A stretch of 64,000 nt of DNA from Dipylidium caninum. Taxonomy: Eukaryota > Platyhelminthes > Cestoda > Cyclophyllidea > Dipylidiidae. Positions within the stretch are counted from its first letter, which is position 1; every line of letters begins with the position of its first letter. Positions 1 through 30,426 of this stretch are shown here, in pieces. The notes under the pieces were generated by a model. It was not told the origin of the DNA. It made no database searches and saw only the letters and a list, made by a program, of their open reading frames with translations. Location of the stretch: positions 1 to 64,000 of the forward strand of contig QEYB01000128.1 of the NCBI GenBank assembly GCA_017562135.1, read 5' to 3'. The translations under genes and the position numbers were made by a program.

Positions 1-430
1 GACAGTCGTAGGGACAGGACAGAGAGAGAGAGGAGAGACAGAAGAGGCGGGGGCGGGCCTCACTCGAGCGCCACCGTCCCAGGCGTTTTGGCTGTTTCAT
101 CTGGTTCTACCAATATTACGTTGCGTCGTCCTCTTAGCAGTGCTGTCTGCCACATGTTCTCATGGCTGGGAAATGCCACACTAAGCGGTTTTCAGTCTGA
201 GAGGCGAGCAGGAGACACCAGAGTGCGTCGCGGACGCTGGGGTGGTAGAGCCGAAGGCGAACGACGAAGGCGATCGAGTTCCTCTGTGGATGAACTAACT
301 TTCCTGGATATTGCCTTGAATTGCTATTTCGACATAGTCAGCGCGACTCATATGCATGGGGCCACGACAAAATCAAACGGCATCCACCACGGACAGATTT
401 TGGCGGAGAAGAAGAAAGAGGGTTTATGGG
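1..430 (+). repeat. Degenerate left edge of the U1 array
   Basis: This stretch aligns only patchily with the segment between the GA tract and the U1 promoter in other units. Shared blocks include GACAGAGAG, CTCGAGCG, TTCTCATGGCTGGGAAA, GGACAGATT and GGCGGAGAA. Between them are insertions unique to this copy, for example about 83-120 and 290-350. It is interpreted as a decaying terminal repeat. Confidence 0.75.
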
Positions 431-691
431 GGGACTCCTAGCGGCCGGGAGGGTACTACTACTGAAGCGTGAGAAGTATGTGTGCTCTAGCCGCACTGAC
501 AGGCGCGGTGGACGTGGTGGTTGGCGAAGGGCGTGATGGTTGAGTCGGGGAGGGGAGGAAGATGCCAGCGTTGGCGGGCAGTGGCGCCATGCGAGGCGGC
601 GAAGGTGAGTGGCCATGGCACTGTCGCCAAGGCGGGACGAGGGCGGCAAGTGGGAGCGCGGCGACGAGCGGAGGCTGAGAGGCAGCTCATT

Positions 692-847
692 AAACTTACC
701 TGGCGCCGGGTTCAGGGTGATCAGGCAAGGCTCTGACCCCAGGTGGAGGCTCAGCATTGCACTCCGCTGTGTTGAAGCCTGCGACGGACTCTAATCGGGT
801 TCGCTCAGGGTGCATAGTTTTTGCCAGTGGGAGCCTTCGGGCGTCCC
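692..847 (+). ncRNA. U1: U1 spliceosomal snRNA, copy 1 (diverged edge copy)
   Basis: First and most divergent copy. It keeps the 5' splice-site pairing segment, the AUUGCACUCC loop and a GCAUAGUUUUUGCC Sm-like region. Against the other ten copies it has an extra G in the stem-loop I loop (GAUCAGGCAAG), an extra A before the Sm-site region (GCUCAGGGUGC) and one G fewer at the base of stem-loop IV (AGUGGGAGCC). The upstream flank (about 430-690) also carries several single-base indels not found in the other units. It may be a decaying edge copy, or the indels may be sequencing or assembly errors. Function is doubtful. Confidence 0.85.
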
Positions 848-1820
848 TTTACCTGCCTCTAATTGTAATTGCCTCTGATGCGCTCGTCCTGCTACTCCCC
901 CCACTAACGCCGCACCGCGGTGCGGCAGCTGGGCTCGCGCGCCGCAGCGTCTGTCGCGGTTCCGCACCTGCGTAGGGTGAGCGCGACCACCGCACTATGA
1001 GCAGTCTCCCCCTTGGACCCATGCTCCGCACAGCGCACTCCCGTTCTCACCGGCGTATGGTATAGGGCACATCGCGTCTGCCCCCCTCACACCTTATACT
1101 GGCACGGGCGCGTGCCTCGCAGCCTCTCCACCTCCGATTCGACCGCGGGTTAGCAGGAGCCTCTGGCCATGTGAGCACACGGGTAACGCTGTGCCCTGGG
1201 GGCCCCTCTTGCCTCTGTCAAACGCGTGCACCAATGCACACGAGAAGCTTCGTGGGCTTTTGCCCTGCGTGCTGCCGCACCTTCAGCGTAGCCGCGCGGC
1301 GACCCCGCCGCCCCAGTCTCCTTCCTCCCCCGCCCCCGCCCCCGCCCCCGCCCCGCCCCCGCCCCCGCCCCGCTAACCCCCCACCGCCATCCCCCCGACC
1401 GCCTACAGGGCTGATCCACTCGCCTCCACCCTCGTGGTGCACCTCGTGACACCGGCGACCTCTCTCTCCACCACCATCTACCTCACACTACCACAAAAGC
1501 AGTCTTCCTTCCTGGCCAACCGTGCACTCCATTGCGTCTAACCTTAGAGATAAGCTACCACATGCACCAACATCCACCCTCTACCCCGGGACACCCACAC
1601 CCACACCCACACCCACACCCACACCCACACCCACACCCACACCCACTTACACCCACAACGACTCCCACTCCGACTACGACTCCGACTCCGACTCCGACTC
1701 CGACTCCGACTCCGACTCCGACTCCGAATCCTATACAGACAGACAGACAGATAGACGGGCAGACGGCCAGACGGCCAGACGGACAGATGGACAGACGGAT
1801 AGACAGACAGACTGACGGAG

Positions 1821-1861
<41 letters not shown>

Positions 1862-2097
1862 CAGAGAGGGGGGGCGACTCGAGCGTGGCGTTGTGTAGCA
1901 GTGCTGCTGCCTGTTCTCATGGCTGGGAAAGCGCGGTGGAGCGAGCCAGGAGTGCGGAGGGAGCGAAGGCGACGAAGGCGACGATGGGATATGCAATTGG
2001 ATGCGTGGCGACGGACAGATTGGCGGAGAAAGAGGGTTTTTGGGGGACTCCTAGCGGCCGGGAGGGATACTACTGAAGCGTGAGAAGTATGTGTGCT

Positions 2098-2296
2098 CTA
2101 GCGCACTGACAGGCGGGTGGGACGTGGTGGTGGCGAAGGGCGTGATGGTTGAGTCGGGGAGGGGAGAAGATGCCAGCGTGGCGGGAGTGGCGCATGGAGG
2201 CGGCGAAGGTGAGTGGCCATGGCACTGGTCGCCAAGGCGGGACGAGGGCGGCAAGTGGGAGCGCGGCGACGAGCGGAGGCTGAGAGGCAGCTCATT
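2098..2296 (+). promoter_or_regulatory. Presumed U1 promoter region (reference unit)
   Basis: The 200 bases before copy 2 are the most uniform part of the unit outside the RNA itself, and are identical by eye before copies 3 to 11. Metazoan U1 genes are transcribed by RNA polymerase II from a proximal sequence element about 50-60 bases upstream of the start, normally without a TATA box. No TATA box is present. I cannot assign the proximal element to a particular motif because its sequence varies between phyla. The call rests on position and conservation only. Confidence 0.5.
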
Positions 2297-2451
2297 AAAC
2301 TTACCTGGCGCCGGGTTCAGGGTGATCAGCAAGGCTCTGACCCCAGGTGGAGGCTCAGCATTGCACTCCGCTGTGTTGAAGCCTGCGACGGACTCTAATC
2401 GGGTTCGCTCGGGTGCATAGTTTTTGCCAGTGGGGAGCCTTCGGGCGTCCC
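2297..2451 (+). ncRNA. U1: U1 spliceosomal snRNA, copy 2 (reference copy)
   Basis: U1 snRNA pairs with 5' splice sites at the first step of intron recognition and forms the U1 snRNP with the seven Sm proteins, U1-70K, U1A and U1C. The gene begins with AAACUUACCUGG, complementary to the 5' splice-site consensus. Stem-loop I follows (GGG and UCAG paired with CUGACCC) with loop GAUCAGCAAG, which departs from the usual GAUCAYGAAG. Stem-loop II has the exact U1A-binding loop AUUGCACUCC, closed by CAGC and GCUG. Stem-loop III pairs CGGACUC with GGGUUCG. A Sm-like site, AGUUUUUG, precedes stem-loop IV, which is capped by a UUCG tetraloop. At about 155 nt it is close to the usual 160-165 nt. The 5' end is set by the conserved pairing segment and could be 1-3 bases off. 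No TATA box is visible upstream, as for many RNA polymerase II snRNA genes. Confidence 0.96.
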
Positions 2452-2512
2452 TTTACCTGCCTCTAATTGTAATTGCCTCTGATGCGCTCGTCCTGCTACT
2501 CCCCCCACTAAC

Positions 2513-2530
2513 GCCGCACCGCGGTGCGGC
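2513..2530. repeat. 18-bp perfect palindrome in the U1 spacer
   Basis: GCCGCACCGCGGTGCGGC reads the same on both strands. It lies about 60 bases downstream of the U1 3' end and recurs at the same place after every copy, including edge copies 1 and 11. It could be a protein-binding site or a cruciform or hairpin element; the sequence does not say which. Confidence 0.9.
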
Positions 2531-2929
2531 AGCTGGGCTCGCGCGCCGCAGCGTCTGTCGCGGTTCCGCACCTGCGTAGGGTGAGCGCGACCACCGCACT
2601 ATGAACAGTCTCCCCTTGGACCCATGCTCCGCACAGCGCACTCCCGTTCTCACCGGCGTATGGTATAGGGCACATCGCGTCTGCCCCCCTCACACCTTAT
2701 ACTGGCACGGGCGCGTGCCTCGCAGCCTCTCCACCTCCGATTCGACCGCGGGTTAGCAGGAGCCTCTGGCCATGTGAGCACACGGGTAACGCTGTGCCCT
2801 GGGGGCCCCTCTTGCCTCTGTCAAACGCGTGCACCAATGCACACGAGAAGCTTCGTGGGCTTTTGCCCTGCGTGCTGCCGCACCTTCAGCGTAGCCGCGC
2901 GGCGACCCCGCCGCCCCAGTCTCCTTCCT

Positions 2930-2971
2930 CCCCCGCCCCCGCCCCCGCCCCGCCCCCGCCCCCGCCCCCGC
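2930..2971. repeat. C-rich hexamer repeat (CCCCCG)n, reference unit
   Basis: Tandem CCCCCG hexamers with occasional CCCCG interruptions. The length differs in almost every unit. The complementary strand is a run of five-G tracts separated by C, which could form G-quadruplexes; the C strand could form an i-motif. Confidence 0.95.
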
Positions 2972-3189
2972 TAACCCCCCACCGCCATCCCCCCGACCGC
3001 CTACAGGGCTGATCCACTCGCCTCCACCCTCGTGGTGCACCTCGTGACACCGGCGACCTCTCTCTCCACCACCATCTACCTCACACTACCACAAAAGCAG
3101 TCTTCCTTCCTGGCCAACCGTGCACTCCATTGCGTCTAACCTTAGAGATAAGCTACCACATGCACCAACATCCACCCTCTACCCCGGGA

Positions 3190-3250
3190 CACCCACACCC
3201 ACACCCACACCCACACCCACACCCACACCCACACCCACACTTACACCCAC
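3190..3250. repeat. CCCACA hexamer repeat, reference unit
   Basis: About nine to ten tandem CCCACA hexamers, followed by the junction CTTACACCCACAACGACTCC. The copy number varies between units. In copies near 14270 and 15800 it grades into plain CA dinucleotides. Confidence 0.95.
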
Positions 3251-3251
3251 A

Positions 3252-3312
3252 ACGACTCCCACTCCGACTACGACTCCGACTCCGACTCCGACTCCGACTC
3301 CGACTCCGAATC
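3252..3312. repeat. CTCCGA hexamer repeat, reference unit
   Basis: Tandem CTCCGA hexamers, some with an internal CTACGA variant, ending in CTCCGAATCC. Expanded with CTCCCA variants in the unit at 7983-8076. Confidence 0.95.
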
Positions 3313-3316
3313 CTAT

Positions 3317-3406
3317 ACAGACAGACAGACAGATAGACGGGCAGACGGCCAGACGGCCAGACGGACAGATGGACAGACGGATAGACAGACAGACTGACGG
3401 AGAGAC

Positions 3407-3450
<44 letters not shown>

Positions 3451-3452
3451 GG
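3317..3452. repeat. GACA/GACG tetramer tract followed by GA tract, reference unit
   Basis: Tandem GACA, GATA and GACG tetramers, with a GGCCAGAC sub-repeat present in one to three copies, grade into a pure GA dinucleotide tract of variable length that ends in GACAGAGAGGGGGGGCGACTC. The purine strand is always the + strand. Confidence 0.95.
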
Positions 3453-3878
3453 GGGGCGACTCGAGCGTGGCGTTGTGTAGCAGTGCTGCTGCCTGTTCTC
3501 ATGGCTGGGAAAGCGCGGTGGAGCGAGCCAGGAGTGCGGAGGGAGCGAAGGCGACGAAGGCGACGATGGGATATGCAATTGGATGCGTGGCGACGGACAG
3601 ATTGGCGGAGAAAGAGGGTTTTTGGGGGACTCCTAGCGGCCGGGAGGGATACTACTGAAGCGTGAGAAGTATGTGTGCTCTAGCGCACTGACAGGCGGGT
3701 GGGACGTGGTGGTGGCGAAGGGCGTGATGGTTGAGTCGGGGAGGGGAGAAGATGCCAGCGTGGCGGGAGTGGCGCATGGAGGCGGCGAAGGTGAGTGGCC
3801 ATGGCACTGGTCGCCAAGGCGGGACGAGGGCGGCAAGTGGGAGCGCGGCGACGAGCGGAGGCTGAGAGGCAGCTCATT

Positions 3879-4033
3879 AAACTTACCTGGCGCCGGGTTC
3901 AGGGTGATCAGCAAGGCTCTGACCCCAGGTGGAGGCTCAGCATTGCACTCCGCTGTGTTGAAGCCTGCGACGGACTCTAATCGGGTTCGCTCGGGTGCAT
4001 AGTTTTTGCCAGTGGGGAGCCTTCGGGCGTCCC
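3879..4033 (+). ncRNA. U1: U1 spliceosomal snRNA, copy 3
   Basis: Identical by eye to copy 2 across the whole RNA and across about 200 bases upstream. It lies 1582 bases downstream of copy 2. Confidence 0.95.
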
Positions 4034-4999
4034 TTTACCTGCCTCTAATTGTAATTGCCTCTGATGCGCTCGTCCTGCTACTCCCCCCACTAACGCCGCA
4101 CCGCGGTGCGGCAGCTGGGCTCGCGCGCCGCAGCGTCTGTCGCGGTTCCGCACCTGCGTAGGGTGAGCGCGACCACCGCACTATGAACAGTCTCCCCCTT
4201 GGACCCATGCTCCGCACAGCGCACTCCCGTTCTCACCGGCGTATGGTATAGGGCACATCGCGTCTGCCCCCCTCACACCTTATACTGGCACGGGCGCGTG
4301 CCTCGCAGCCTCTCCACCTCCGATTCGACCGCGGGTTAGCAGGAGCCTCTGGCCATGTGAGCACACGGGTAACGCTGTGCCCTGGGGGCCCCTCTTGCCT
4401 CTGTCAAACGCGTGCACCAATGCACACGAGAAGCTTCGTGGGCTTTTGCCCTGCGTGCTGCCGCACCTTCAGCGTAGCCGCGCGGCGACCCCGCCGCCCC
4501 AGTCTCCTTCCTCCCCCGCCCCCGCCCCCGCCCCCGCCCCCGCCCCCGCCCCCGCTAACCCCCCACCGCCATCCCCCCGACCGCCTACAGGGCTGATCCA
4601 CTCGCCTCCACCCTCGTGGTGCACCTCGTGACACCGGCGACCTCTCTCTCCACCACCATCTACCTCACACTACCACAAAAGCAGTCTTCCTTCCTGGCCA
4701 ACCGTGCACTCCATTGCGTCTAACCTTAGAGATAAGCTACCACATGCACCAACATCCACCCTCTACCCCGGGACACCCACACCCACACCCACACCCACAC
4801 CCACACCCACACCCACACCCACACCCCACACTTACACCCACAACGACTCCCACTCCGACTACGACTCCGACTCCGACTCCGACTCCGACTCCGAATCCTA
4901 TACAGACAGACAGACAGATAGACGGGCAGACGGCCAGACGGCCAGGCGGCCAGACGGACAGATGGACAGACGGATAGACAGACAGACTGACGGAGAGAC

Positions 5000-5045
<46 letters not shown>

Positions 5046-5473
5046 GGGGGGCGACTCGAGCGTGGCGTTGTGTAGCAGTGCTGCTGCCTGTTCTCATGGC
5101 TGGGAAAGCGCGGTGGAGCGAGCCAGGAGTGCGGAGGGAGCGAAGGCGACGAAGGCGACGATGGGATATGCAATTGGATGCGTGGCGACGGACAGATTGG
5201 CGGAGAAAGAGGGTTTTTGGGGGACTCCTAGCGGCCGGGAGGGATACTACTGAAGCGTGAGAAGTATGTGTGCTCTAGCGCACTGACAGGCGGGTGGGAC
5301 GTGGTGGTGGCGAAGGGCGTGATGGTTGAGTCGGGGAGGGGAGAAGATGCCAGCGTGGCGGGAGTGGCGCATGGAGGCGGCGAAGGTGAGTGGCCATGGC
5401 ACTGGTCGCCAAGGCGGGACGAGGGCGGCAAGTGGGAGCGCGGCGACGAGCGGAGGCTGAGAGGCAGCTCATT

Positions 5474-5628
5474 AAACTTACCTGGCGCCGGGTTCAGGGT
5501 GATCAGCAAGGCTCTGACCCCAGGTGGAGGCTCAGCATTGCACTCCGCTGTGTTGAAGCCTGCGACGGACTCTAATCGGGTTCGCTCGGGTGCATAGTTT
5601 TTGCCAGTGGGGAGCCTTCGGGCGTCCC
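5474..5628 (+). ncRNA. U1: U1 spliceosomal snRNA, copy 4
   Basis: RNA identical by eye to copy 2. The downstream spacer carries the GAGCAGTCTC variant near 5780, shared with units 1 and 8, where other units read GAACAGTCTC. Confidence 0.95.
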
Positions 5629-6571
5629 TTTACCTGCCTCTAATTGTAATTGCCTCTGATGCGCTCGTCCTGCTACTCCCCCCACTAACGCCGCACCGCG
5701 GTGCGGCAGCTGGGCTCGCGCGCCGCAGCGTCTGTCGCGGTTCCGCACCTGCGTAGGGTGAGCGCGACCACCGCACTATGAGCAGTCTCCCCCTTGGACC
5801 CATGCTCCGCACAGCGCACTCCCGTTCTCACCGGCGTATGGTATAGGGCACATCGCGTCTGCCCCCCTCACACCTTATACTGGCACGGGCGCGTGCCTCG
5901 CAGCCTCTCCACCTCCGATTCGACCGCGGGTTAGCAGGAGCCTCTGGCCATGTGAGCACACGGGTAACGCTGTGCCCTGGGGGCCCCTCTTGCCTCTGTC
6001 AAACGCGTGCACCAATGCACACGAGAAGCTTCGTGGGCTTTTGCCCTGCGTGCTGCCGCACCTTCAGCGTAGCCGCGCGGCGACCCCGCCGCCCCAGTCT
6101 CCTTCCTCCCCCGCCCCCGCCCCCGCCCCCGCCCCCGCCCCCGCCCCCCCCCCCCCCCCCGACCGCCTACAGGGCTGATCCACTCGCCTCCACCCTCGTG
6201 GTGCACCTCGTGACACCGGCGACCTCTCTCTCCACCACCATCTACCTCACACTACCACAAAAGCAGTCTTCCTTCCTGGCCAACCGTGCACTCCATTGCG
6301 TCTAACCTTAGAGATAAGCTACCACATGCACCAACATCCACCCTCTACCCCGGGACACCCACACCCACACCCACACCCACACCCACACCCACACCCACAC
6401 CCACACTTACACCCACACTCCCACTCACGACTCCCACTCCGACTACGACTCCGACTCCGACTCCGACTCCGACTCCGAATCCTATACAGACAGACAGACA
6501 GATAGACGGGCAGACGGCCAGACGGCCAGACGGACAGATGGACAGACGGATAGACAGACAGACTGACGGAG

Positions 6572-6610
<39 letters not shown>

Positions 6611-7045
6611 CAGAGAGGGGGGGCGACTCGAGCGTGGCGTTGTGTAGCAGTGCTGCTGCCTGTTCTCATGGCTGGGAAAGCGCGGTGGAGCGAGCCAGGA
6701 GTGCGGAGGGAGCGAAGGCGACGAAGGCGACGATGGGATATGCAATTGGATGCGTGGCGACGGACAGATTGGCGGAGAAAGAGGGTTTTTGGGGGACTCC
6801 TAGCGGCCGGGAGGGATACTACTGAAGCGTGAGAAGTATGTGTGCTCTAGCGCACTGACAGGCGGGTGGGACGTGGTGGTGGCGAAGGGCGTGATGGTTG
6901 AGTCGGGGAGGGGAGAAGATGCCAGCGTGGCGGGAGTGGCGCATGGAGGCGGCGAAGGTGAGTGGCCATGGCACTGGTCGCCAAGGCGGGACGAGGGCGG
7001 CAAGTGGGAGCGCGGCGACGAGCGGAGGCTGAGAGGCAGCTCATT

Positions 7046-7200
7046 AAACTTACCTGGCGCCGGGTTCAGGGTGATCAGCAAGGCTCTGACCCCAGGTGGA
7101 GGCTCAGCATTGCACTCCGCTGTGTTGAAGCCTGCGACGGACTCTAATCGGGTTCGCTCGGGTGCATAGTTTTTGCCAGTGGGGAGCCTTCGGGCGTCCC
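7046..7200 (+). ncRNA. U1: U1 spliceosomal snRNA, copy 5
   Basis: RNA identical by eye to copy 2. The preceding C-rich block runs into a pure C tract (about 6144-6160) instead of the usual GCTAACCCCCCACC transition. Confidence 0.95.
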
Positions 7201-8161
7201 TTTACCTGCCTCTAATTGTAATTGCCTCTGATGCGCTCGTCCTGCTACTCCCCCCACTAACGCCGCACCGCGGTGCGGCAGCTGGGCTCGCGCGCCGCAG
7301 CGTCTGTCGCGGTTCCGCACCTGCGTAGGGTGAGCGCGACCACCGCACTATGAACAGTCTCCCCCTTGGACCCATGCTCCGCACAGCGCACTCCCGTTCT
7401 CACCGGCGTATGGTATAGGGCACATCGCGTCTGCCCCCCTCACACCTTATACTGGCACGGGCGCGTGCCTCGCAGCCTCTCCACCTCCGATTCGACCGCG
7501 GGTTAGCAGGAGCCTCTGGCCATGTGAGCACACGGGTAACGCTGTGCCCTGGGGGCCCCTCTTGCCTCTGTCAAACGCGTGCACCAATGCACACGAGAAG
7601 CTTCGTGGGCTTTTGCCCTGCGTGCTGCCGCACCTTCAGCGTAGCCGCGCGGCGACCCCGCCGCCCCAGTCTCCTTCCTCCCCCGCCCCCGCCCCCGCCC
7701 CCGCCCCCGCCCCCGCCCCCCGCCCCCCCCCGACCGCCTACAGGGCTGATCCACTCGCCTCCACCCTCGTGGTGCACCTCGTGACACCGGCGACCTCTCT
7801 CTCCACCACCATCTACCTCACACTACCACAAAAGCAGTCTTCCTTCCTGGCCAACCGTGCACTCCATTGCGCCTAACCTTAGAGATAAGCTACCACATGC
7901 ACCAACATCCACCCTCTACCCCGGGACACCCACACCCACACCCACACCCACACCCACACCCACACCCACACTTACACCCACAACGACTCCCACTCCGACT
8001 CCCACTTCGACTCCCACTCCGACTCCCACTCCCACTCCCACTACGACTCCGACTCCGACTCCGACTCCGACTCCGAATCCTATACAGACAGACAGACAGA
8101 TAGACGGGCAGACGGCCAGACGGACAGATGGACAGACGGATAGACAGACAGACTGACGGAG

Positions 8162-8200
<39 letters not shown>

Positions 8201-8635
8201 CAGAGAGGGGGGGCGACTCGAGCGTGGCGTTGTGTAGCAGTGCTGCTGCCTGTTCTCATGGCTGGGAAAGCGCGGTGGAGCGAGCCAGGAGTGCGGAGGG
8301 AGCGAAGGCGACGAAGGCGACGATGGGATATGCAATTGGATGCGTGGCGACGGACAGATTGGCGGAGAAAGAGGGTTTTTGGGGGACTCCTAGCGGCCGG
8401 GAGGGATACTACTGAAGCGTGAGAAGTATGTGTGCTCTAGCGCACTGACAGGCGGGTGGGACGTGGTGGTGGCGAAGGGCGTGATGGTTGAGTCGGGGAG
8501 GGGAGAAGATGCCAGCGTGGCGGGAGTGGCGCATGGAGGCGGCGAAGGTGAGTGGCCATGGCACTGGTCGCCAAGGCGGGACGAGGGCGGCAAGTGGGAG
8601 CGCGGCGACGAGCGGAGGCTGAGAGGCAGCTCATT

Positions 8636-8790
8636 AAACTTACCTGGCGCCGGGTTCAGGGTGATCAGCAAGGCTCTGACCCCAGGTGGAGGCTCAGCAT
8701 TGCACTCCGCTGTGTTGAAGCCTGCGACGGACTCTAATCGGGTTCGCTCGGGTGCATAGTTTTTGCCAGTGGGGAGCCTTCGGGCGTCCC
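8636..8790 (+). ncRNA. U1: U1 spliceosomal snRNA, copy 6
   Basis: RNA identical by eye to copy 2. The CTCCGA block upstream is expanded and interspersed with CTCCCA (about 7983-8076). The downstream spacer has the CCCCTTTGG and ACTCCGG variants (near 8950 and 8980) shared with units 9 and 10. Confidence 0.95.
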
Positions 8791-9738
8791 TTTACCTGCC
8801 TCTAATTGTAATTGCCTCTGATGCGCTCGTCCTGCTACTCCCCCCACTAACGCCGCACCGCGGTGCGGCAGCTGGGCTCGCGCGCCGCAGCGTCTGTCGC
8901 GGTTCCGCACCTGCGTAGGGTGAGCGCGACCACCGCACTATGAACAGTCTCCCCTTTGGACCCATGCTCCGCACAGCGCACTCCGGTTCTCACCGGCGTA
9001 TGGTATAGGGCACATCGCGTCTGCCCCCCTCACACCTTATACTGGCACGGGCGCGTGCCTCGCAGCCTCTCCACCTCCGATTCGACTGTGGGTTAGCAGG
9101 AGCCTCTGGCCATGTGAGCACACGGGTAACGCTGTGCCCTGGGGGCCCCTCTTGCCTCTGTCAAACGCGTGCACCAATGCACACGAGAAGCTTCGTGGGC
9201 TTTTGCCCTGCGTGCTGCCGCACCTTCAGCGTAGCCGCGCGGCGACCCCGCCGCCCCAGTCTCCTTCCTCCCCCGCCCCCGCCCCCGCCCCCCCCGCCCC
9301 CGCCCCCGCTAACCCCCCACCGCCATCCCCCCGACCGCCTACAGGGCTGATCCACTCGCCTCCACCCTCGTGGTGCACCTCGTGACACCGGCGACCTCTC
9401 TCTCCACCACCATCTACCTCACACTACCACAAAAGCAGTCTTCCTTCCTGGCCAACCGTGCACTCCATTGCGTCTAACCTTAGAGATAAGCTACCACATG
9501 CACCAACATCCACCCTCTACCCCGGGACACCCACACCCACACCCACACCCACACCCACACCCACACCCACACCCACACCCACACCCACTTACACCCACAA
9601 CGACTCCCACTCCGACTACGACTCCGACTCCGACTCCGACTCCGAATCCTATACAGACAGACAGACAGATAGACGGGCAGACGGCCAGACGGCCAGACGG
9701 ACAGATGGACAGACGGATAGACAGACAGACTGACGGAG

Positions 9739-9777
<39 letters not shown>

Positions 9778-10212
9778 CAGAGAGGGGGGGCGACTCGAGC
9801 GTGGCGTTGTGTAGCAGTGCTGCTGCCTGTTCTCATGGCTGGGAAAGCGCGGTGGAGCGAGCCAGGAGTGCGGAGGGAGCGAAGGCGACGAAGGCGACGA
9901 TGGGATATGCAATTGGATGCGTGGCGACGGACAGATTGGCGGAGAAAGAGGGTTTTTGGGGGACTCCTAGCGGCCGGGAGGGATACTACTGAAGCGTGAG
10001 AAGTATGTGTGCTCTAGCGCACTGACAGGCGGGTGGGACGTGGTGGTGGCGAAGGGCGTGATGGTTGAGTCGGGGAGGGGAGAAGATGCCAGCGTGGCGG
10101 GAGTGGCGCATGGAGGCGGCGAAGGTGAGTGGCCATGGCACTGGTCGCCAAGGCGGGACGAGGGCGGCAAGTGGGAGCGCGGCGACGAGCGGAGGCTGAG
10201 AGGCAGCTCATT

Positions 10213-10367
10213 AAACTTACCTGGCGCCGGGTTCAGGGTGATCAGCAAGGCTCTGACCCCAGGTGGAGGCTCAGCATTGCACTCCGCTGTGTTGAAGCCT
10301 GCGACGGACTCTAATCGGGTTCGCTCGGGTGCATAGTTTTTGCCAGTGGGGAGCCTTCGGGCGTCCC
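10213..10367 (+). ncRNA. U1: U1 spliceosomal snRNA, copy 7
   Basis: RNA identical by eye to copy 2. Its downstream C-rich block (about 10846-10874) is shorter than in most units. Confidence 0.95.
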
Positions 10368-11298
10368 TTTACCTGCCTCTAATTGTAATTGCCTCTGATG
10401 CGCTCGTCCTGCTACTCCCCCACTAACGCCGCACCGCGGTGCGGCAGCTGGGCTCGCGCGCCGCAGCGTCTGTCGCGGTTCCGCACCTGCGTAGGGTGAG
10501 CGCGACCACCGCACTATGAACAGTCTCCCCCTTGGACCCATGCTCCGCACAGCGCACTCCCGTTCTCACCGGCGTATGGTATAGGGCACATCGCGTCTGC
10601 CCCCTCACACCTTATACTGGCACGGGCGCGTGCCTCGCAGCCTCTCCACCTCCGATTCGACCGTGGGTTAGCAGGAGCCTCTGGCCATGTGAGCACACGG
10701 GTAACGCTGTGCCCTGGGGGCCCCTCTTGCCTCTGTCAAACGCGTGCACCAATGCACACGAGAAGCTTCGTGGGCTTTTGCCCTGCGTGCTGCCGCACCT
10801 TCAGCGTAGCCGCGCGGCGACCCCGCCGCCCCAGTCTCCTTCCTCCCCGCCCCCGCCCCCGCCCCCGCCCCCGCTAACCCCCCACCCCATCCCCCCGACC
10901 GCCTACAGGGCTGATCCACTCGCCTCCACCCTCGTGGTGCACCTCGTGACACCGGCGACCTCTCTCTCCACCACCATCTACCTCACACTACCACAAAAGC
11001 AGTCTTCCTTCCTGGCCAACCGTGCACTCCATTGCGTCTAACCTTAGAGATAAGCTACCACATGCACCAACATCCACCCTCTACCCCGGGACACCCACAC
11101 CCACACCCACACCCACACCCACACCCACACCCACACCCACACTTACACCCACAACGACTCCCACTCCGACTCCGACTCCGACTCCGACTCCGACTCCGAC
11201 TCCGAATCCTATACAGACAGACAGACAGATAGACGGGCAGACGGCCAGACGGCCAGACGGACAGATGGACAGACGGATAGACAGACAGACTGACGGAG

Positions 11299-11337
<39 letters not shown>

Positions 11338-11772
11338 CAGAGAGGGGGGGCGACTCGAGCGTGGCGTTGTGTAGCAGTGCTGCTGCCTGTTCTCATGGCT
11401 GGGAAAGCGCGGTGGAGCGAGCCAGGAGTGCGGAGGGAGCGAAGGCGACGAAGGCGACGATGGGATATGCAATTGGATGCGTGGCGACGGACAGATTGGC
11501 GGAGAAAGAGGGTTTTTGGGGGACTCCTAGCGGCCGGGAGGGATACTACTGAAGCGTGAGAAGTATGTGTGCTCTAGCGCACTGACAGGCGGGTGGGACG
11601 TGGTGGTGGCGAAGGGCGTGATGGTTGAGTCGGGGAGGGGAGAAGATGCCAGCGTGGCGGGAGTGGCGCATGGAGGCGGCGAAGGTGAGTGGCCATGGCA
11701 CTGGTCGCCAAGGCGGGACGAGGGCGGCAAGTGGGAGCGCGGCGACGAGCGGAGGCTGAGAGGCAGCTCATT

Positions 11773-11927
11773 AAACTTACCTGGCGCCGGGTTCAGGGTG
11801 ATCAGCAAGGCTCTGACCCCAGGTGGAGGCTCAGCATTGCACTCCGCTGTGTTGAAGCCTGCGACGGACTCTAATCGGGTTCGCTCGGGTGCATAGTTTT
11901 TGCCAGTGGGGAGCCTTCGGGCGTCCC
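11773..11927 (+). ncRNA. U1: U1 spliceosomal snRNA, copy 8
   Basis: RNA identical by eye to copy 2. The downstream spacer again has the GAGCAGTCTC variant (near 12078) seen in units 1 and 4. Confidence 0.95.
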
Positions 11928-12854
11928 TTTACCTGCCTCTAATTGTAATTGCCTCTGATGCGCTCGTCCTGCTACTCCCCCCACTAACGCCGCACCGCGG
12001 TGCGGCAGCTGGGCTCGCGCGCCGCAGCGTCTGTCGCGGTTCCGCACCTGCGTAGGGTGAGCGCGACCACCGCACTATGAGCAGTCTCCCCCTTGGACCC
12101 ATGCTCCGCACAGCGCACTCCCGTTCTCACCGGCGTATGGTATAGGGCACATCGCGTCTGCCCCCCTCACACCTTATACTGGCACGGGCGCGTGCCTCGC
12201 AGCCTCTCCACCTCCGATTCGACCGCGGGTTAGCAGGAGCCTCTGGCCATGTGAGCACACGGGTAACGCTGTGCCCTGGGGGCCCCTCTTGCCTCTGTCA
12301 AACGCGTGCACCAATGCACACGAGAAGCTTCGTGGGCTTTTGCCCTGCGTGCTGCCGCACCTTCAGCGTAGCCGCGCGGCGACCCCCGCCCCAGTCTCCT
12401 TCCTCCCCCGCCCCCGCCCCCGCCCCCGCCCCCGCTAACCCCCCACCCCATCCCCCGACCGCCTACAGGGCTGATCCACTCGCCTCCACCCTCGTGGTGC
12501 ACCTCGTGACACCGGCGACCTCTCTCTCCACCACCATCTACCTCACACTACCACAAAAGCAGTCTTCCTTCCTGGCCAACCGTGCACTCCATTGCGTCTA
12601 ACCTTAGAGATAAGCTACCACATGCACCAACATCCACCCTCTACCCCGGGACACCCACACCCCACACCCACACCCACACCCACACCCACACCCACACCCA
12701 CACCCACACCCACACTCCGACTCGACTCCGACTCCGACTCCGACTCCGACTCCGACTCCGAATCCTATACAGACAGACAGACAGATAGACGGGCAGACGG
12801 CCAGACGGCCAGACGGACAGATGGACAGACGGATAGACAGACAGACTGACGGAG

Positions 12855-12893
<39 letters not shown>

Positions 12894-13329
12894 CAGAGAG
12901 GGGGGGCGACTCGAGCGTGGCGTTGTGTAGCAGTGCTGCTGCCTGTTCTCATGGCTGGGAAAGCGCGGTGGAGCGAGCCAGGAGTGCGGAGGGAGCGAAG
13001 GCGACGAAGGCGACGATGGGATATGCAATTGGATGCGTGGCGACGGACAGATTGGCGGAGAAAAGAGGGTTTTTGGGGGACTCCTAGCGGCCGGGAGGGA
13101 TACTACTGAAGCGTGAGAAGTATGTGTGCTCTAGCGCACTGACAGGCGGGTGGGACGTGGTGGTGGCGAAGGGCGTGATGGTTGAGTCGGGGAGGGGAGA
13201 AGATGCCAGCGTGGCGGGAGTGGCGCATGGAGGCGGCGAAGGTGAGTGGCCATGGCACTGGTCGCCAAGGCGGGACGAGGGCGGCAAGTGGGAGCGCGGC
13301 GACGAGCGGAGGCTGAGAGGCAGCTCATT

Positions 13330-13484
13330 AAACTTACCTGGCGCCGGGTTCAGGGTGATCAGCAAGGCTCTGACCCCAGGTGGAGGCTCAGCATTGCACT
13401 CCGCTGTGTTGAAGCCTGCGACGGACTCTAATCGGGTTCGCTCGGGTGCATAGTTTTTGCCAGTGGGGAGCCTTCGGGCGTCCC
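13330..13484 (+). ncRNA. U1: U1 spliceosomal snRNA, copy 9
   Basis: RNA identical by eye to copy 2. The upstream unit has a shortened CTCCGA block that lacks the usual CTTACACCCACAACGACTCC junction. The downstream spacer carries the CCCCTTTGG and ACTCCGG variants. Confidence 0.95.
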
Positions 13485-14431
13485 TTTACCTGCCTCTAAT
13501 TGTAATTGCCTCTGATGCGCTCGTCCTGCTACTCCCCCCACTAACGCCGCACCGCGGTGCGGCAGCTGGGCTCGCGCGCCGCAGCGTCTGTCGCGGTTCC
13601 GCACCTGCGTAGGGTGAGCGCGACCACCGCACTATGAACAGTCTCCCCTTTGGACCCATGCTCCGCACAGCGCACTCCGGTTCTCACCGGCGTATGGTAT
13701 AGGGCACATCGCGTCTGCCCCCCTCACACCTTATACTGGCACGGGCGCGTGCCTCGCAGCCTCTCCACCTCCGATTCGACCGGGGGTTAGCAGGAGCCTC
13801 TGGCCATGTGAGCACACGGGTAACGCTGTGCCCTGGGGGCCCCTCTTGCCTCTGTCAAACGCGTGCACCAATGCACACGAGAAGCTTCGTGGGCTTTTGC
13901 CCTGCGTGCTGCCGCACCTTCAGCGTAGCCGCGCGGCGACCCCGCCGCCCCAGTCTCCTTCCTCCCCCGCCCCCGCCCCGCCCCCGCCCCCGCCCCCGCT
14001 AACCCCCACCGCCATCCCCCCGACCGCCTACAGGGCTGATCCACTCGCCTCCACCCTCGTGGTGCACCTCGTGACACCGGCGACCTCTCTCTCCACCACC
14101 ATCTACCTCACACTACCACAAAAGCAGTCTTCCTTCCTGGCCAACCGTGCACTCCATTGCGTCTAACCTTAGAGATAAGCTACCACATGCACCAACATCC
14201 ACCCTCTACCCCGGGACACCCACACCCACACCCACACCCACACCCACACCCACACCCACACCCACACACACACACACTTACACCACACGACTCCCACTCC
14301 GACTACGACTCCGACTCCGACTCCGACTCCGACTCCGAATCCTATACAGACAGACAGACAGATAGACGGGCAGACGGCCAGACGGCCAGACGGACAGATG
14401 GACAGACGGATAGACAGACAGACTGACGGAG

Positions 14432-14470
<39 letters not shown>

Positions 14471-14904
14471 CAGAGAGGGGGGCGACTCGAGCGTGGCGTT
14501 GTGTAGCAGTGCTGCTGCCTGTTCTCATGGCTGGGAAAGCGCGGTGGAGCGAGCCAGGAGTGCGGAGGGAGCGAAGGCGACGAAGGCGACGATGGGATAT
14601 GCAATTGGATGCGTGGCGACGGACAGATTGGCGGAGAAAGAGGGTTTTTGGGGGACTCCTAGCGGCCGGGAGGGATACTACTGAAGCGTGAGAAGTATGT
14701 GTGCTCTAGCGCACTGACAGGCGGGTGGGACGTGGTGGTGGCGAAGGGCGTGATGGTTGAGTCGGGGAGGGGAGAAGATGCCAGCGTGGCGGGAGTGGCG
14801 CATGGAGGCGGCGAAGGTGAGTGGCCATGGCACTGGTCGCCAAGGCGGGACGAGGGCGGCAAGTGGGAGCGCGGCGACGAGCGGAGGCTGAGAGGCAGCT
14901 CATT

Positions 14905-15059
14905 AAACTTACCTGGCGCCGGGTTCAGGGTGATCAGCAAGGCTCTGACCCCAGGTGGAGGCTCAGCATTGCACTCCGCTGTGTTGAAGCCTGCGACGGA
15001 CTCTAATCGGGTTCGCTCGGGTGCATAGTTTTTGCCAGTGGGGAGCCTTCGGGCGTCCC
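14905..15059 (+). ncRNA. U1: U1 spliceosomal snRNA, copy 10
   Basis: RNA identical by eye to copy 2. The downstream spacer carries the CCCCTTTGG and ACTCCGG variants and a much shortened C-rich block (about 15535-15570), which makes this the shortest unit (1517 bases). Confidence 0.95.
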
Positions 15060-15951
15060 TTTACCTGCCTCTAATTGTAATTGCCTCTGATGCGCTCGTC
15101 CTGCTACTCCCCCCACTAACGCCGCACCGCGGTGCGGCAGCTGGGCTCGCGCGCCGCAGCGTCTGTCGCGGTTCCGCACCTGCGTAGGGTGAGCGCGACC
15201 ACCGCACTATGAACAGTCTCCCCTTTGGACCCATGCTCCGCACAGCGCACTCCGGTTCTCACCGGCGTATGGTATAGGGCACATCGCGTCTGCCCCCCTC
15301 ACACCTTATACTGGCACGGGCGCGTGCCTCGCAGCCTCTCCACCTCCGATTCGACCTGGGTTAGCAGGAGCCTCTGGCCATGTGAGCACACGGGTAACGC
15401 TGTGCCCTGGGGCCCCTCTTGCCTCTGTCAAACGCGTGCACCAATGCACACGAGAAGCTTCGTGGGCTTTTGCCCTGCGTGCTGCCGCACCTTCAGCGTA
15501 GCCGCGCGGCGACCCCGCCGCCCCAGTCTCCTTCCTCCCCGCCCCGCCCCCGCCCCCGCCCCGCCCCGCACAGGGCTGATCCACTCGCCTCCACCCTCGT
15601 GGTGCACCTCGTGACACCGGCGACCTCTCTCTCCACCACCATCTACCTCACACTACCACAAAAGCAGTCTTCCTTCCTGGCCAACCGTGCACTCCATTGC
15701 GTCTAACCTTAGAGATAAGCTACCACATGCACCAACATCCACCCTCTACCCCGGGACACCACACCCACACCCACACCCACACCCACACCCACACCCACAC
15801 CCACACACACACACACCCACACGACTCCCACTCCGACTACGACTCCGACTCCGACTCCGACTCCGACTCCGAGACAGACAGACAGATAGACGGGCAGACG
15901 GCCAGACGGACAGATGGACAGACGGATAGACAGACAGACTGACGGAGAGAC

Positions 15952-15993
<42 letters not shown>

Positions 15994-16421
15994 GGGGGGC
16001 GACTCGAGCGTGGCGTTGTGTAGCAGTGCTGCTGCCTGTTCTCATGGCTGGGAAAGCGCGGTGGAGCGAGCCAGGAGTGCGGAGGGAGCGAAGGCGACGA
16101 AGGCGACGATGGGATATGCAATTGGATGCGTGGCGACGGACAGATTGGCGGAGAAAGAGGGTTTTTGGGGGACTCCTAGCGGCCGGGAGGGATACTACTG
16201 AAGCGTGAGAAGTATGTGTGCTCTAGCGCACTGACAGGCGGGTGGGACGTGGTGGTGGCGAAGGGCGTGATGGTTGAGTCGGGGAGGGGAGAAGATGCCA
16301 GCGTGGCGGGAGTGGCGCATGGAGGCGGCGAAGGTGAGTGGCCATGGCACTGGTCGCCAAGGCGGGACGAGGGCGGCAAGTGGGAGCGCGGCGACGAGCG
16401 GAGGCTGAGAGGCAGCTCATT

Positions 16422-16576
16422 AAACTTACCTGGCGCCGGGTTCAGGGTGATCAGCAAGGCTCTGACCCCAGGTGGAGGCTCAGCATTGCACTCCGCTGTG
16501 TTGAAGCCTGCGACGGACTCTAATCGGGTTCGCTCGGGTGCATAGTTTTTGCCAGTGGGGAGCCTTCGGGCGTCCC
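16422..16576 (+). ncRNA. U1: U1 spliceosomal snRNA, copy 11 (last copy)
   Basis: RNA identical by eye to copy 2, although it lies next to the degenerate right edge. The spacer diverges within about 25 bases of its 3' end (ATTGTGATTG for ATTGTAATTG, then several substitutions and insertions such as TATATTATATTAGG). The transcribed region therefore stays uniform where the spacer does not. Confidence 0.94.
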
Positions 16577-17180
16577 TTTACCTGCCTCTAATTGTGATTG
16601 CCTCTGAATGCGCTCGTCCTGCCTACTCCCCCCACTAACGCCGCACCGCGGTGCGGCAGCTGGGCTCGCGCGCGCCACCGCGTCTGTCGCGGTTCCGCAC
16701 CTGCGTAGGGTGAGTGCGACCACCGCACTATGGGCAGTCTCCCCCTGCACCCATGCTCCGCACAGCGCACTCCCGTTCTCACCGGCGTATATTATATTAG
16801 GGCACATCGCGTCTGCCCCCCTCAGACCTTATACTGGCACGGGCGCGTGCCTCGCAGCCTCTCTCACCTCCGAATTCGACCGCGGTTAGCAGGAGCCTCT
16901 GGCCATGTGAGCACAGGGTAACGCTGTGCCCTGGGGGCCCCTCTTGCCTCTGTCAAATGCGTGCACCAATGCACACGAGAAGCTTCGTGAGCTTTTGCCC
17001 TGCGTGCTGCCGCACCTTCAGCGTAGCCGCGCGGCGACCCCGCCGCCCCAGTCTCCTTCCTCCCCCGCCCCGCCCCCGCCCCCGCTAACCCGCACAGGGC
17101 TGATCCACTCGCCTCCACCCTCGTGGTGCACCTCGTGACACCGGCGACTCTCTCTCCGCCACCATTCTTACTCACCACCT
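16577..17180 (+). repeat. Degenerate right edge of the U1 array
   Basis: The last spacer keeps the overall order (palindrome region, AGCCTCTGGCCATG, shortened C-rich block, CTCCACCCTCGTGG) but carries many substitutions and small indels absent from inner units. Similarity ends near CTCTCTCCGCCACCATTC. Beyond it the sequence becomes AT- and T-rich and unlike the array. Confidence 0.85.
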
Positions 17181-17717: not shown

Positions 17718-19908
17718 CTACACAAGGGTGAATTTCTCAAGCTTATTTTGTCCCACTTGGATCATTGTCTTATAGGGTTCCCAATGCGTTGGATCTGAGT
17801 TGGACGACACCACAACAACTGTGGAGTGAGGGGAGCCGCTCGTCTCCTCTCCTTCCTCCTCGGCCTCCTCCTCCTCTTCAGCCTCCTGTGAGATTGGCGA
17901 ACTTCCACCGCTCTCTTCACATACCTTTCTCTCTTTTTCTACCTTCATCTGCTCCTTCGCCGCCGCCGCCGATATTCGCGAACTGCGCACATAGAGGCGC
18001 GTCCGGGGCCTTGGCTTTGAGCATATTGACGTTCCAGCCTCTGTGTCGGAAATAGACATTGTCGTCGCTGCCGTGGGCATTGTAACCATCGATTTCTTTC
18101 CTTCCATAACTTCCGCACACACATGCGACAACAGGGTCATTGGCGGGGGAGGTAGGGGGCAGGAAAAAGTAGACCCAGACTGCTGATCCAAAGATGAGCG
18201 CCTCTGACAGCTGTCATTCGGATACACATTCAAGGAGGCAGAGGACCGAGTTGCGGCGCCTTGTTGCTGTGATTGTGGCTGAGGATGTTCTTTATCGTCT
18301 ATATTGATATCAGTGGCCCCGCTAAGACTTCCACCTTTTCCACTACTCCATTCAGAGCCAGAGCTCGGCCCACGTCCAGAGTCCCTGTCTTCAATTTCAT
18401 ATACTGCGGGGATCGAAGTGAATGAGGTCTTGACTGCCGACGTAGAAGGGGTGTGGAGGCTTAACTGTGGTGAGGGGTAGACAGCGCGGCTCGGCACCGG
18501 TTCTGAGACCGTGTCACAAATGGATGAGCCTGCATTCATTTGACCACTTGACGAGGACTGAACTACATCGGGAGAAGTTGTCATGAAAACGGTGGGGTCT
18601 ACCATCTTTATAGTATAGTCTTGTGAACGCGTGTGTCGGGGAGTGATATGTGACATTCGTGGAGTGCTATTGGGGTGGACGATAGAGCATATAATGCGTG
18701 GGACGAAACCGACTGGACCTGTTCCAGACCCATGATCCGAGCACCACTTCTGCGCCAAGAACCACCCGGTGGTGGGCGATGTTTTATCCGGATTCGTACC
18801 TGGATAAGGGATGATTCTTAAGAAATCACCTCGATGGACACTTATAACTTTGTACTTTTCAATCCACTCCAAGGTGGGGAAGAAATCCTCCACCGCTCTG
18901 GCAATAATCTGTACAAAATTGGGGTCTTTAGAAGGGCTGCTTGCTGGCCAAGGTCTTGAAAATGTACTCCCTGTTAGGTTGAGAGTCTGTGGGCGACTGC
19001 ATTGACGGGTAGAGGGATACCATGGCATGACTTGTGGAGCTGCAACAGATGGGTGAGCAAGAGACTGATAAGGGTGATGGAGTGTTCGTTTTAACTGTGG
19101 AGTGAAGTGAATCGGCGCTGCGTTAAGGAGCTTTCCACCATTCGTCAACTTCCAGCAAAGATCGAATTCATTGTCGCCCTCACTAGACGAGCTGCTGGAA
19201 GAAGAATCCGTGGAAGTTGAGGGAGATCGCGATGAGAAATGGGCAGTTTCTCGTCGATTGCGCCTTGAGGGCTGTTTTTTACGCCGGTGCCGAGTAGACA
19301 TAGTGGAAGTTCTGGATATTTCAAAACTGGAAGAGGAAGAGTCCGAACTAGGACAATTTCTTGAGTGATGAGTCGAAGGAGACGCACGTTTACTCCGGTC
19401 ACTATCGCTTTTCCTTCCTAACTCACCAGCACCAGCATTTTCTTCATCCGTGCTGTCGCTGAGATCATCTTCATCCCCTGTGGATAAAGAAAGCCACTGA
19501 CTCTCGGCAGTTGTTTGCGCTATCATTGAGAGGGCCAAGCTGTTTTCCGGCCGCTTAGGTTTTGGACATTGTCCAGTAGTGGCCGACGTTGCAGGCGGCG
19601 ATGGGCTAGCAGAAGCCTGCCACACTTGGGTGGGTTTAATAGATTCGAAAGTTACCATAGCTGAACAGGATCGTCGAGAAGACATACTCCTTGTTCGCAT
19701 AGACCCACCAAAACGATGGTCTTCACTGAAGATTCGTGTCGAGGTCTCCTTCCCATAATGGGACTTGCGTTGACTTCGAACATCAGGCGTGGCGGCCTTA
19801 GCTCCACTCTCCCGAAGCTCCCATCTCGGGTCCTGCAAGTTCTCGTTGCGTTGGGATCGTTGTTGCGACTTCGCCTTGGACTTTTTCGACAGCACATGCA
19901 ACATTGGC
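17718..19908 (-). CDS. Large exon of an SH3-domain protein, probably C-terminal
   Basis: An open frame of about 729 codons with stop TAG. The exon probably starts at an acceptor (TTTTCTTGCCACCGTAG, ending at 19909), so the first ATG (19904) need not be the protein start. Counting from that ATG, residues 1-325 are Ser/Arg/Lys-rich and disordered, with acidic and poly-Ser stretches (143-156, 189-193, 231-241). An SH3 domain lies at about 330-409: an ARAVEDF version of the ALYDF motif, YKVISVHRGDFLRII, the Trp of GWFLAQK and GPVGFVPRIICSIV, with a longer than usual loop before GWF. The tail is Ser/Pro/Gln-rich, with a proline stretch (585-588) and an acidic run (675-686) near the end. SH3 domains bind proline-rich ligands, so a cytoplasmic adaptor role is inferred. 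I do not recognise the family. Confidence 0.85.
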
Positions 19909-20124
19909 CTACGGTGGCAAGAAAACCAGCTCAGTCAGTCTTGGTCTCAAAAACCTACCACCTCCCGGTGGAAACTAAACGGTGAGGGACACTTCTGAAA
20001 GTCGTGATTAATTACTACACTCTCCAACCAATGAAATCGCACCTTTTCGCACAAACTCAGACAAGCGTATATGAATCATTGAGTTCTTTGTTATCTTTGT
20101 TATTTTTTCAGTTGGCTGGCTTAC

Positions 20125-28100: not shown

Positions 28101-28261
28101 AAGAGTTCAGGGCAGACGGAAGACAAGGTACTACCAAAACAAAATCCATTACTCATGCGGGCAAAACGCGTTGGAGGATTTGAATGGAGAGGAAAGAGAT
28201 GACATGTAAGGCCAGGTGAGAGACAGGATGCAGAAAAAGAGTAAAAGAAAAGATAAACGTG
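25160..28261. other. No gene recognised
   Basis: AT-rich sequence with scattered short frames. A - strand frame at 27146-27379 would encode a hydrophobic N-terminus followed by dibasic KR and RRR sites, but it has no ATG. Nothing else stands out. Confidence 0.5.
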
Positions 28262-30426
28262 AGACGGAGCAGAAGGAGGAGTCGATGTGATGGACAAACG
28301 AGCCATTATCCAACCCAAAAGACATCAAAGGCCACGATCCGTCACGGCAATCTCCCTCTTCCAAAGGTAGCGGCCTTGGCAGTGGCACTGACACCAGCGT
28401 TGACACAGCTGCTCCAACAAACTACGGAATGTACGCGCAAAGATGAAAAAGTCATACAAGGCAAATCCGAAAACACAGTTGATGGGACAAACGAATGCAG
28501 ACGACGCGGAGGGGAAAGGAGGGAAGAAGGGAAGAAGGGGCGACTGGAGGCAGAAGCGAGGACGGACACGTAGACGGGGATGGAGACGGAGGGGAAGGGG
28601 AAGGGGAATGTGAAGGTGGTGGAGAGGCAGGAGGCCGCCTGAACAGAGGCAGTCAGAGAAAGTGAGTGAGGGCGGAGGGAGAAGAGAAGATGAAGAAGGA
28701 ATAAGAGAACAGAAGGGGCATCGCTGTCTCTCCACGCAACCACGTCTTCGGCATCAGCTCTACTCCACCACAGTCCACACACACCCACCACCCCTTGTTC
28801 TTCTCCCTCCTTCTTCGTTTCTCTATGTCCAGCATTCCGTCCAACAGTTAACAATGTCTCCAAGTCTGCTCGTCTAAGTCAACAATGGGACCAGCTCCAT
28901 CAACTACATCATCTGCACTAACGTCATTGGCGGAGCGGGCAGTATCAGCGTCGCTTCCTACGCCGTCGCGACCAACTGTCCAACGTGACTTTGGTGTCAA
29001 ATATGAGAGGCGACGTCGAGACCACCAACGCAGTTGTGATCAGCAGCTCACAAGTAGTCAGAGAAGTGATGCGGTCCGGTTAAGGGTGCTACACCCACAA
29101 GTGGGCGCAGCATGCGTGACACACTCATCCGCCACTCGGCAGGCATTGACGCTTCCCTGTTCCTTTTCCGACTCCGCCTGCCTCCACCAACATGGTGAAT
29201 TGCAGACTCAGGGCTTCTTTCTCCACTGGCACTATCACCTTCGGGAAGAGCGCAGGAGACGAGGCATTCTGTGACCCACCTCTGTCCGTCCACTGATACA
29301 CACAAATACATTATCAGGCGCACCAAGCCCTACAACTAAGTGGCGGAGGCCGGAGCGAACTGCGCGACAGCTGAATAAAATGCCTTGCCTCGTGTTTGGA
29401 GGAGAAAAGAATCGCGTTTTTGGGGTGATTAGCAAACCGAACGTCTTGACACCTGTTTTTCATGTCGTCAGATCAATTTCTTTCCGCCTCTTCAGCCCAC
29501 GTGAGGTGGTGCTGCAAACGCGCCTACTCCTGACCTTCCCCTCCCCCTCCCCTTCCCCTGTCCGCCCTCCCCCCGCCCCTACCGCCCCCCCTCCGGCCTC
29601 CGCCCCTCCACCGCCTCCGCCTCCACCGACAACTTACTCGTTCGTCGGTCGATGTCGCTGGTCGCTGCCTCAATACGCTGCCCTCCTCCACACCCTCACA
29701 CATCGCAGCACTCTGCTTGTCCCCCACCCACTTGACGCCCGGCTGCCACCCACGCGTCTACGCACAAGACACCACCGCAGATGCCTGGTGGGGAGACAGG
29801 AAGTAAGCCAACTGCCTGGAGGGCACACTGCCCACCCACCACTGCCATTCCACATCAGTTGACGGTCAACGGATGCTGCGCGATATTCACCCCTGCCCAG
29901 TAGCCAATTCAACAGCAAGGCTGACTGTTGGGCGTCATTTGGTGTCACTTCCGCTCCAACAATTGCGAGTACTAGTGTGAGTGAGCGAACGGGAGACGAG
30001 AGGAAGGCCATTTCCTCCTCCCAACACTACCTGACCAAGTCGAGCAGACTAGTGATGAATGGTTATGGCGGTGGTGAAGTCGAGTATCAGATTGGATGGA
30101 ATAGGACAGCTTTGCCATGCTCACATTCCGCGTTTGTGGAGGAGGCGTTGCAATCAAGATCTCGTCTTTTTCCTCCAGCCAACACGCTAGTTGGTCAGGT
30201 TTGGCATCCTCGTCAAGAGAACAAGCCGACGCATACCTGATGCCCACCAGGGTAAGATGACGCCTTCTACCGAGGAACTGTCACTTCACTACCACACTAC
30301 CGCATGGCCTCACTACCCATGATGTGACATAGTCCAGCCCAGTGGAACCTCCAAGTCCTACCTCATTCTTTCTGCATCAATTCCACCGGTTCTCATCATG
30401 TAGGTCACGATGGTACCGCAGCGTTG
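28262..30426 (+). repeat. Left arm of a large inverted repeat (element copy A)
   Basis: This segment of about 2.16 kb reappears in reverse complement at 33241-35564 at roughly 90% identity by eye. Matching ends are GACGGAGCAGAAGGAGGAG near 28262 and GGTACCGCAGCGTTG near 30426. It contains purine-rich GAAGGGGAAGGGG and GGAGACGGAG stretches and a C-rich stretch (29530-29640). All open frames are short, interrupted and rich in Pro, Arg or Ser, and none resembles a transposase or polymerase. Best described as a dispersed non-autonomous element of unknown class. Confidence 0.85.

Follow-up and report, generated by a model that had tools for sequence, protein, structure and literature searches.

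A tandem array of probably functional U1 snRNA genes, uniform within diverging spacers, in a cyclophyllidean tapeworm

The left part of the 64,000-base stretch of DNA analysed here (the window; bases 1–64000 of contig C388 in a genome assembly of 106,277,105 bases and 920 contigs) carries genes for U1 small nuclear RNA (snRNA) repeated head to tail, and these very probably form a tandem array of working U1 genes belonging to a cyclophyllidean tapeworm. The units appear to be self-contained, each with a promoter that has a CAAG resembling a proximal sequence element (PSE) at −45, a U1 coding region of 157 nts and a spacer rich in microsatellites. By analogy with other U1 genes the promoter would be used by RNA polymerase II (Pol II), and the many copies may supply the dose of U1 needed for splicing. 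Tapeworms with repeated U1 genes have been described before, and the array is ordinary in that respect. What is added is the presence of two spacer subfamilies with an identical gene consensus, a CAAG common to the U2, U4 and U5 promoters, and a separate two-copy U1 class.

The array in the window and its edges

When all Rfam families were scanned across the whole window at the gathering threshold, the only matches were 11, all to U1 (RF00003), on the + strand and over the full model (1–166). An earlier sequence-only reading of this DNA had named these genes U1 and proposed just this covariance-model check, which they pass. Copy 1 (692–850) scores 98.2 bits (E 1.9e-23). Each of the other ten scores 116.8 bits (E 8.4e-29): copy 2 at 2297–2453, which serves as the reference, and copies 3 to 11 at 3879–4035, 5474–5630, 7046–7202, 8636–8792, 10213–10369, 11773–11929, 13330–13486, 14905–15061 and 16422–16578. 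Alignments to the model were printed for three copies, and for the remaining identical ones the match follows from letter identity. Over 157 nts, 10 of the 11 copies are letter-identical and copy 1 has small indels. Several units thus follow one another head to tail with near-identical genes, as in a tandem snRNA array, and their spacing of 1517–1605 bp bears out the 1.5–1.6 kb first estimated. Microsatellites of the types ACACCC, CGACTC, ACAG and GA occupy 3189–3450 (+) in the spacer of one unit, and similar blocks are present in the other units.

The window begins at the left end of its contig and so the assembly cuts the array: positions 1–691 (+), starting directly at contig base 1, are a partial unit upstream of copy 1, in keeping with the proposal that the array runs on past that edge. 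On the right, the 3′ spacer of the last copy is truncated (16579–17175, +), and the array has its boundary where unit homology ends at about 17175 (754 nts from 16422), in agreement with the end at 17180 put forward earlier. The G+C content is 0.635 in 1–17180 versus 0.469 across the rest of the window.

The partial unit contains many extra bases and is probably unpolished. When the edge is set against unit 2 in bins of 150 bases, the first four have 65, 67, 81 and 10 extra bases and later bins 0 to 6, with substitutions at 0 to 3 per bin and 4 in total over the first four bins. For an interior unit treated likewise, no bin has more than 1 extra base and the substitutions add up to 1. Since the extra bases pile up at the edge and the interior unit is nearly free of them, copy 1 is probably unpolished contig-edge sequence rather than a real variant. 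Scattered insertions like those of copy 1 are also found in the outermost copies of contigs C506 (165 nts) and C802 (167 nts). That C388 and C506 break inside repeats, and that edge units are rich in errors, is what would be expected had a single U1 unit been multiplied by misassembly. Such an artefact is scarcely credible, however, as interior C388 units are 5 to 25 substitutions apart from each other and also differ in length, which makes them distinguishable copies, and U1 units occur on three contigs.

The predicted RNA of the array class (about 157 nts long, with the 5′ start AAACUUACC) has the complement of the 5′ splice site, ACUUACCUG, at positions 3–11 and the stem-loop II loop AUUGCACUCC, the U1A site, in all 11 window copies. 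The Sm region aligned by RF00003 is AUAGUUUUUG, and the 3′ stem-loop IV is a 7-bp hairpin with a UUCG loop. The four signatures by which U1 had first been recognized (splice-site segment, U1A loop, Sm-like site and terminal stem-loop) are all present. Position 2 is A where the Rfam consensus has U. Its minimum-energy fold exceeds those of shuffled versions in stability (z −2.30; as stable a fold is reached by 5 of 200 shuffles).

Uniform genes, diverging spacers and the promoter

A U1 search of the genome gave at least 30 matches, 26 of them over the cut-off, this being a lower bound. They are distributed as 11 on C388, six on C506, nine on C802, two on C219 and one each on C711 and C118. Five of the C506 copies are clustered towards the right end of the contig with the sixth about 12 kb before the cluster, the C802 copies lie along a contig of 14.9 kb, and the single copies on C711 and C118 are degenerate. 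At least 14 copies of array type are found beyond the window, on two other contigs; the original count of at least 11 copies holds for the window, but covers only part of the assembled U1 family. Letter identity to the reference copy extends to 18 of the 30 (10/11 on C388, 5/9 on C802, 3/6 on C506 and 0/4 elsewhere).

Repetition at kilobase spacing is shared by other snRNA genes. There are at least 46 U2 matches, spread over three contigs (every one of the 46 candidates scored proved to be a match), 14 U5 matches, 13 of them on two contigs, and four U4 matches as two pairs, so that the repetition of U1 is part of a general habit of this genome. The U2 repeats, on C103, C517 and C867, are spaced at about 1.0–1.1 kb and have both orientations on C517.

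The spacers of C388 and the C506 cluster belong to one subfamily and those of C802 to a second. Consensus sequences were compared for nine C388 units and six C802 units, of 22, with edge-near and C506 units omitted. The gene is identical at 157/157 positions and the last upstream columns at 99/101. Beyond the gene there are 41 substitutions and 14 gap columns in unit positions 158–400, 46 and 88 in positions 401–700, and 67 and 97 in positions 701–1200. Identical genes inside divergent spacers point to homogenization of the gene: unequal crossing-over, gene conversion and selection may keep the coding region uniform, with the spacers left to drift and their microsatellites to slip. The assembled units reveal the make-up of a U1 array in a tapeworm, with a uniform gene and promoter between diverging microsatellite spacers.

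Pol II snRNA genes carry a proximal sequence element. A CAAG starting at −47 to −45 is present in 5/5 independent promoters (the U1 array, U2, U5 and two U4 types) and in 9/11 of the sequences listed; in the window, where copy 2 was the one tested, it lies at 2252–2255 (+), at −45. In none of 2000 shuffled sets did any 4-mer recur in this way within a span of 3 nts, and this positional test was the one that set the promoters apart from shuffles. Most simply, CAAG is the putative proximal sequence element of these genes.

A second U1 class and the U1-70K loop

Two divergent U1 copies are present on C219 (stretch L009, 2357–2515 and 4734–4892; AAACUUACUU). The two resemble each other throughout the gene and some 215 bp of upstream sequence, and then diverge within a few bases downstream. 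Their RF00003 scores, 119.7 and 117.9 bits, are slightly above the 116.8 bits of the array class, and their stem-loop I loop is GAUCAAGAAG, as in the Rfam consensus, versus GAUCAGCAAG in the array class. The C219 copy compared, C219b, differs from the array class at 23 places in columns 1–141. Of 29 base pairs tested, 11 differ (eight on one side, three on both), and all 29 are standard pairs; the pairs were chosen from the printed Rfam structure, with stem-loop III by eye and stem-loop IV folded apart (a hairpin in both), and the choice omitted the middle of stem-loop II as well as Rfam pair 16–48, which the array already has in non-standard form. Pair counts for C506:333074, C711 and C118 took no account of gaps and were set aside. 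Simulated changes left no pair broken in 70 of 20000 trials with random columns and 177 of 20000 with the same columns. Because all 29 pairs are kept, the C219 class looks like a maintained U1 rather than debris.

The stem-loop I loop of the array class, at positions 28–37 of copy 2 (2324–2333, +), is identical in 10/11 window copies, copy 1 having one extra base. The Rfam consensus there is GAUCAaGAAG. The U1-70K site is a loop of the form GAUCANGAAG. That motif was not found in the array, where the loop GAUCAGCAAG has C instead of G at position 34, and the name U1 is kept since the overall RF00003 score still passes. In the human structure, Arg191 and Lys138 of U1-70K stack C33 and G34 between them (from the part of PMC4383343 consulted).

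Several points weigh against an array of functional genes. Its loop deviates at 33–34, the very bases embraced by human U1-70K, and for that reason it is uncertain that U1-70K binds. Folded without constraints, the array RNA has no canonical stem-loop II at minimum energy but C219b does, which tells mildly against the array. For the promoter, the shuffles of the positional test preserved base content only, and an unguided motif search (Gibbs, seven promoters) scored, at each of three widths, no differently from 12 shuffled sets. The difference in fold, taken with the higher scores, canonical loop and intact pairing of the C219 class, could be read as a sign that most U1 copies of the array are silent, the array being a satellite, and that the two-copy class is the working U1. 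Such a state of affairs is nonetheless very improbable. The array gene consensus is identical across strongly diverged spacer subfamilies. Its CAAG matches the U2, U4 and U5 promoters, whereas both C219 promoters are without CAAG at −47 to −45 and carry GCATTCGGAG. It is also the array that has the consensus 5′ segment ACUUACCUGG, versus ACUUACUUGG in C219. A tandem array of functional genes is accordingly the preferred account.

The standard features of U1 are in fact split between the two classes: a standard 5′-splice-site segment (positions 3–12) goes with a rearranged loop in the array class, and the C219 class has the standard loop with U for C at position 9, which would alter pairing with the last base of the exon. 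That the genome uses two U1 snRNAs, with the hold of U1-70K on the array RNA altered and the minor class serving a subset of 5′ splice sites, is an idea that may be entertained, though it is rather unlikely. That the many-copy U1 should have the altered U1-70K loop and the minor one the normal loop is a small puzzle, bearing on how strict U1-70K is about stem-loop I.

The genome encodes a U1-70K gene. Its model (L018, 1495–3165), built by eye against the human protein, matches U1-70K of Echinococcus canadensis at 96% identity, with 82% of the query covered. It was aligned in 122 rows, which are the best 120 of 1482 matches, the human protein and the model itself. Arg191 is kept, as in 122/122 rows, and Lys138 is replaced by Ala; position 138 is K in 48/122 of the aligned proteins. 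Position 172 is His in 8/122 rows, the eight tapeworm rows printed, and residue 172 packs on G28, which is unchanged in the array U1. Co-evolution of U1-70K with the changed loop was considered and is unsupported: position 138 varies so widely among animals that Ala138 is no demonstration of co-adaptation, and 172 contacts an unchanged base. As a separate observation, 5 of the 6 5′ splice sites in the gene model are not GTAAG (GTATT, GTACT, GTATG, GTTTT and GTTAG) and so are weak matches to U1.

Tapeworm relatives and neighbouring sequence

Head-to-tail tandem U1 units are found in sea urchin and frog. These had been offered as examples, but the closest precedents are in tapeworms, judging from the portions consulted of PMC7238142, PMC5527041 and PMC12274263. 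The first of these cites Bretagne 1991, whose title concerns a U1 gene repeat of Echinococcus multilocularis, and with it Bretagne 1996, as describing tapeworm U1 repeats and using them as markers; like the array, what it reports is a repeated tapeworm U1 gene with microsatellites in the U1 spacers, and spacers of this kind have been used to genotype Echinococcus. PMC12274263 gives GenBank M73768.1 as the U1 of E. multilocularis, and this is presumably the U1 of the 1991 repeat. From a taeniid U1 snRNA primer pair given in PMC5527041 (seen in part), the 24-nt primer is exact in 11/11 window copies; the second primer is without a match in the window at up to 3 mismatches. The exact primer match and the published tapeworm repeats together place the array in a known kind. 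Clustered tapeworm U1 is also represented by ClatSat13-761 of Caryophyllaeus laticeps, annotated by its similarity to E. multilocularis U1, though that worm is of another order and its cluster was found in 2025 by repeat analysis and chromosome mapping (PMC12274263).

The 24-mer had no match in viral_contigs or genome_contigs, and a full-text literature search with the loop letters and the primer gave, among the matches listed, hits to the loop letters only, none of them an snRNA paper by title. No U1 sequence was found in the portions consulted of PMC12810898, PMC10617735 and PMC8587495. The E. multilocularis marker EmsB, a tandem microsatellite of the form (CA)n(GA)m that serves in genotyping (PMC12714974), differs in that its forward primer, the only one tested, has two matches in the genome, each with 2 mismatches, on C87 and C329, which are not U1 contigs; nothing here shows EmsB and U1 to be one locus.

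Adjoining the array is a protein-coding frame at 17718–19934 (−). It has 14 relatives, nine of them with an organism name, and all nine are tapeworms. Identity is highest, at 70%, to Taenia asiatica, followed by 69% to Hydatigera, 67% to Echinococcus multilocularis and 64% to Anoplocephala. The homologues of the first three are 84–90% alike among themselves, which puts the window protein outside them, and the tree of this protein gives no firm branching order at the fork where the window, the taeniids and the hymenolepidid/anoplocephalid worms meet. With the U1-70K identity to E. canadensis added, the genome would be that of a cyclophyllidean tapeworm close to Taeniidae and outside Taenia/Echinococcus. 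Exons of triosephosphate isomerase were also found in it and do not enter into this placement. The frame is of 738 codons, conserved across tapeworms, and called an SH3- or SAM-domain protein in some records; Pfam gave no match in six open frames of the window, this one included. Further to the right is a large imperfect inverted repeat, with arms at 28251–30426 and 33241–35574, about 2.8 kb apart, that align by blastn in two blocks of 88% and 90% identity. Its arms contain low-complexity open frames; it may be a mobile element, or else have arisen by inverted duplication.

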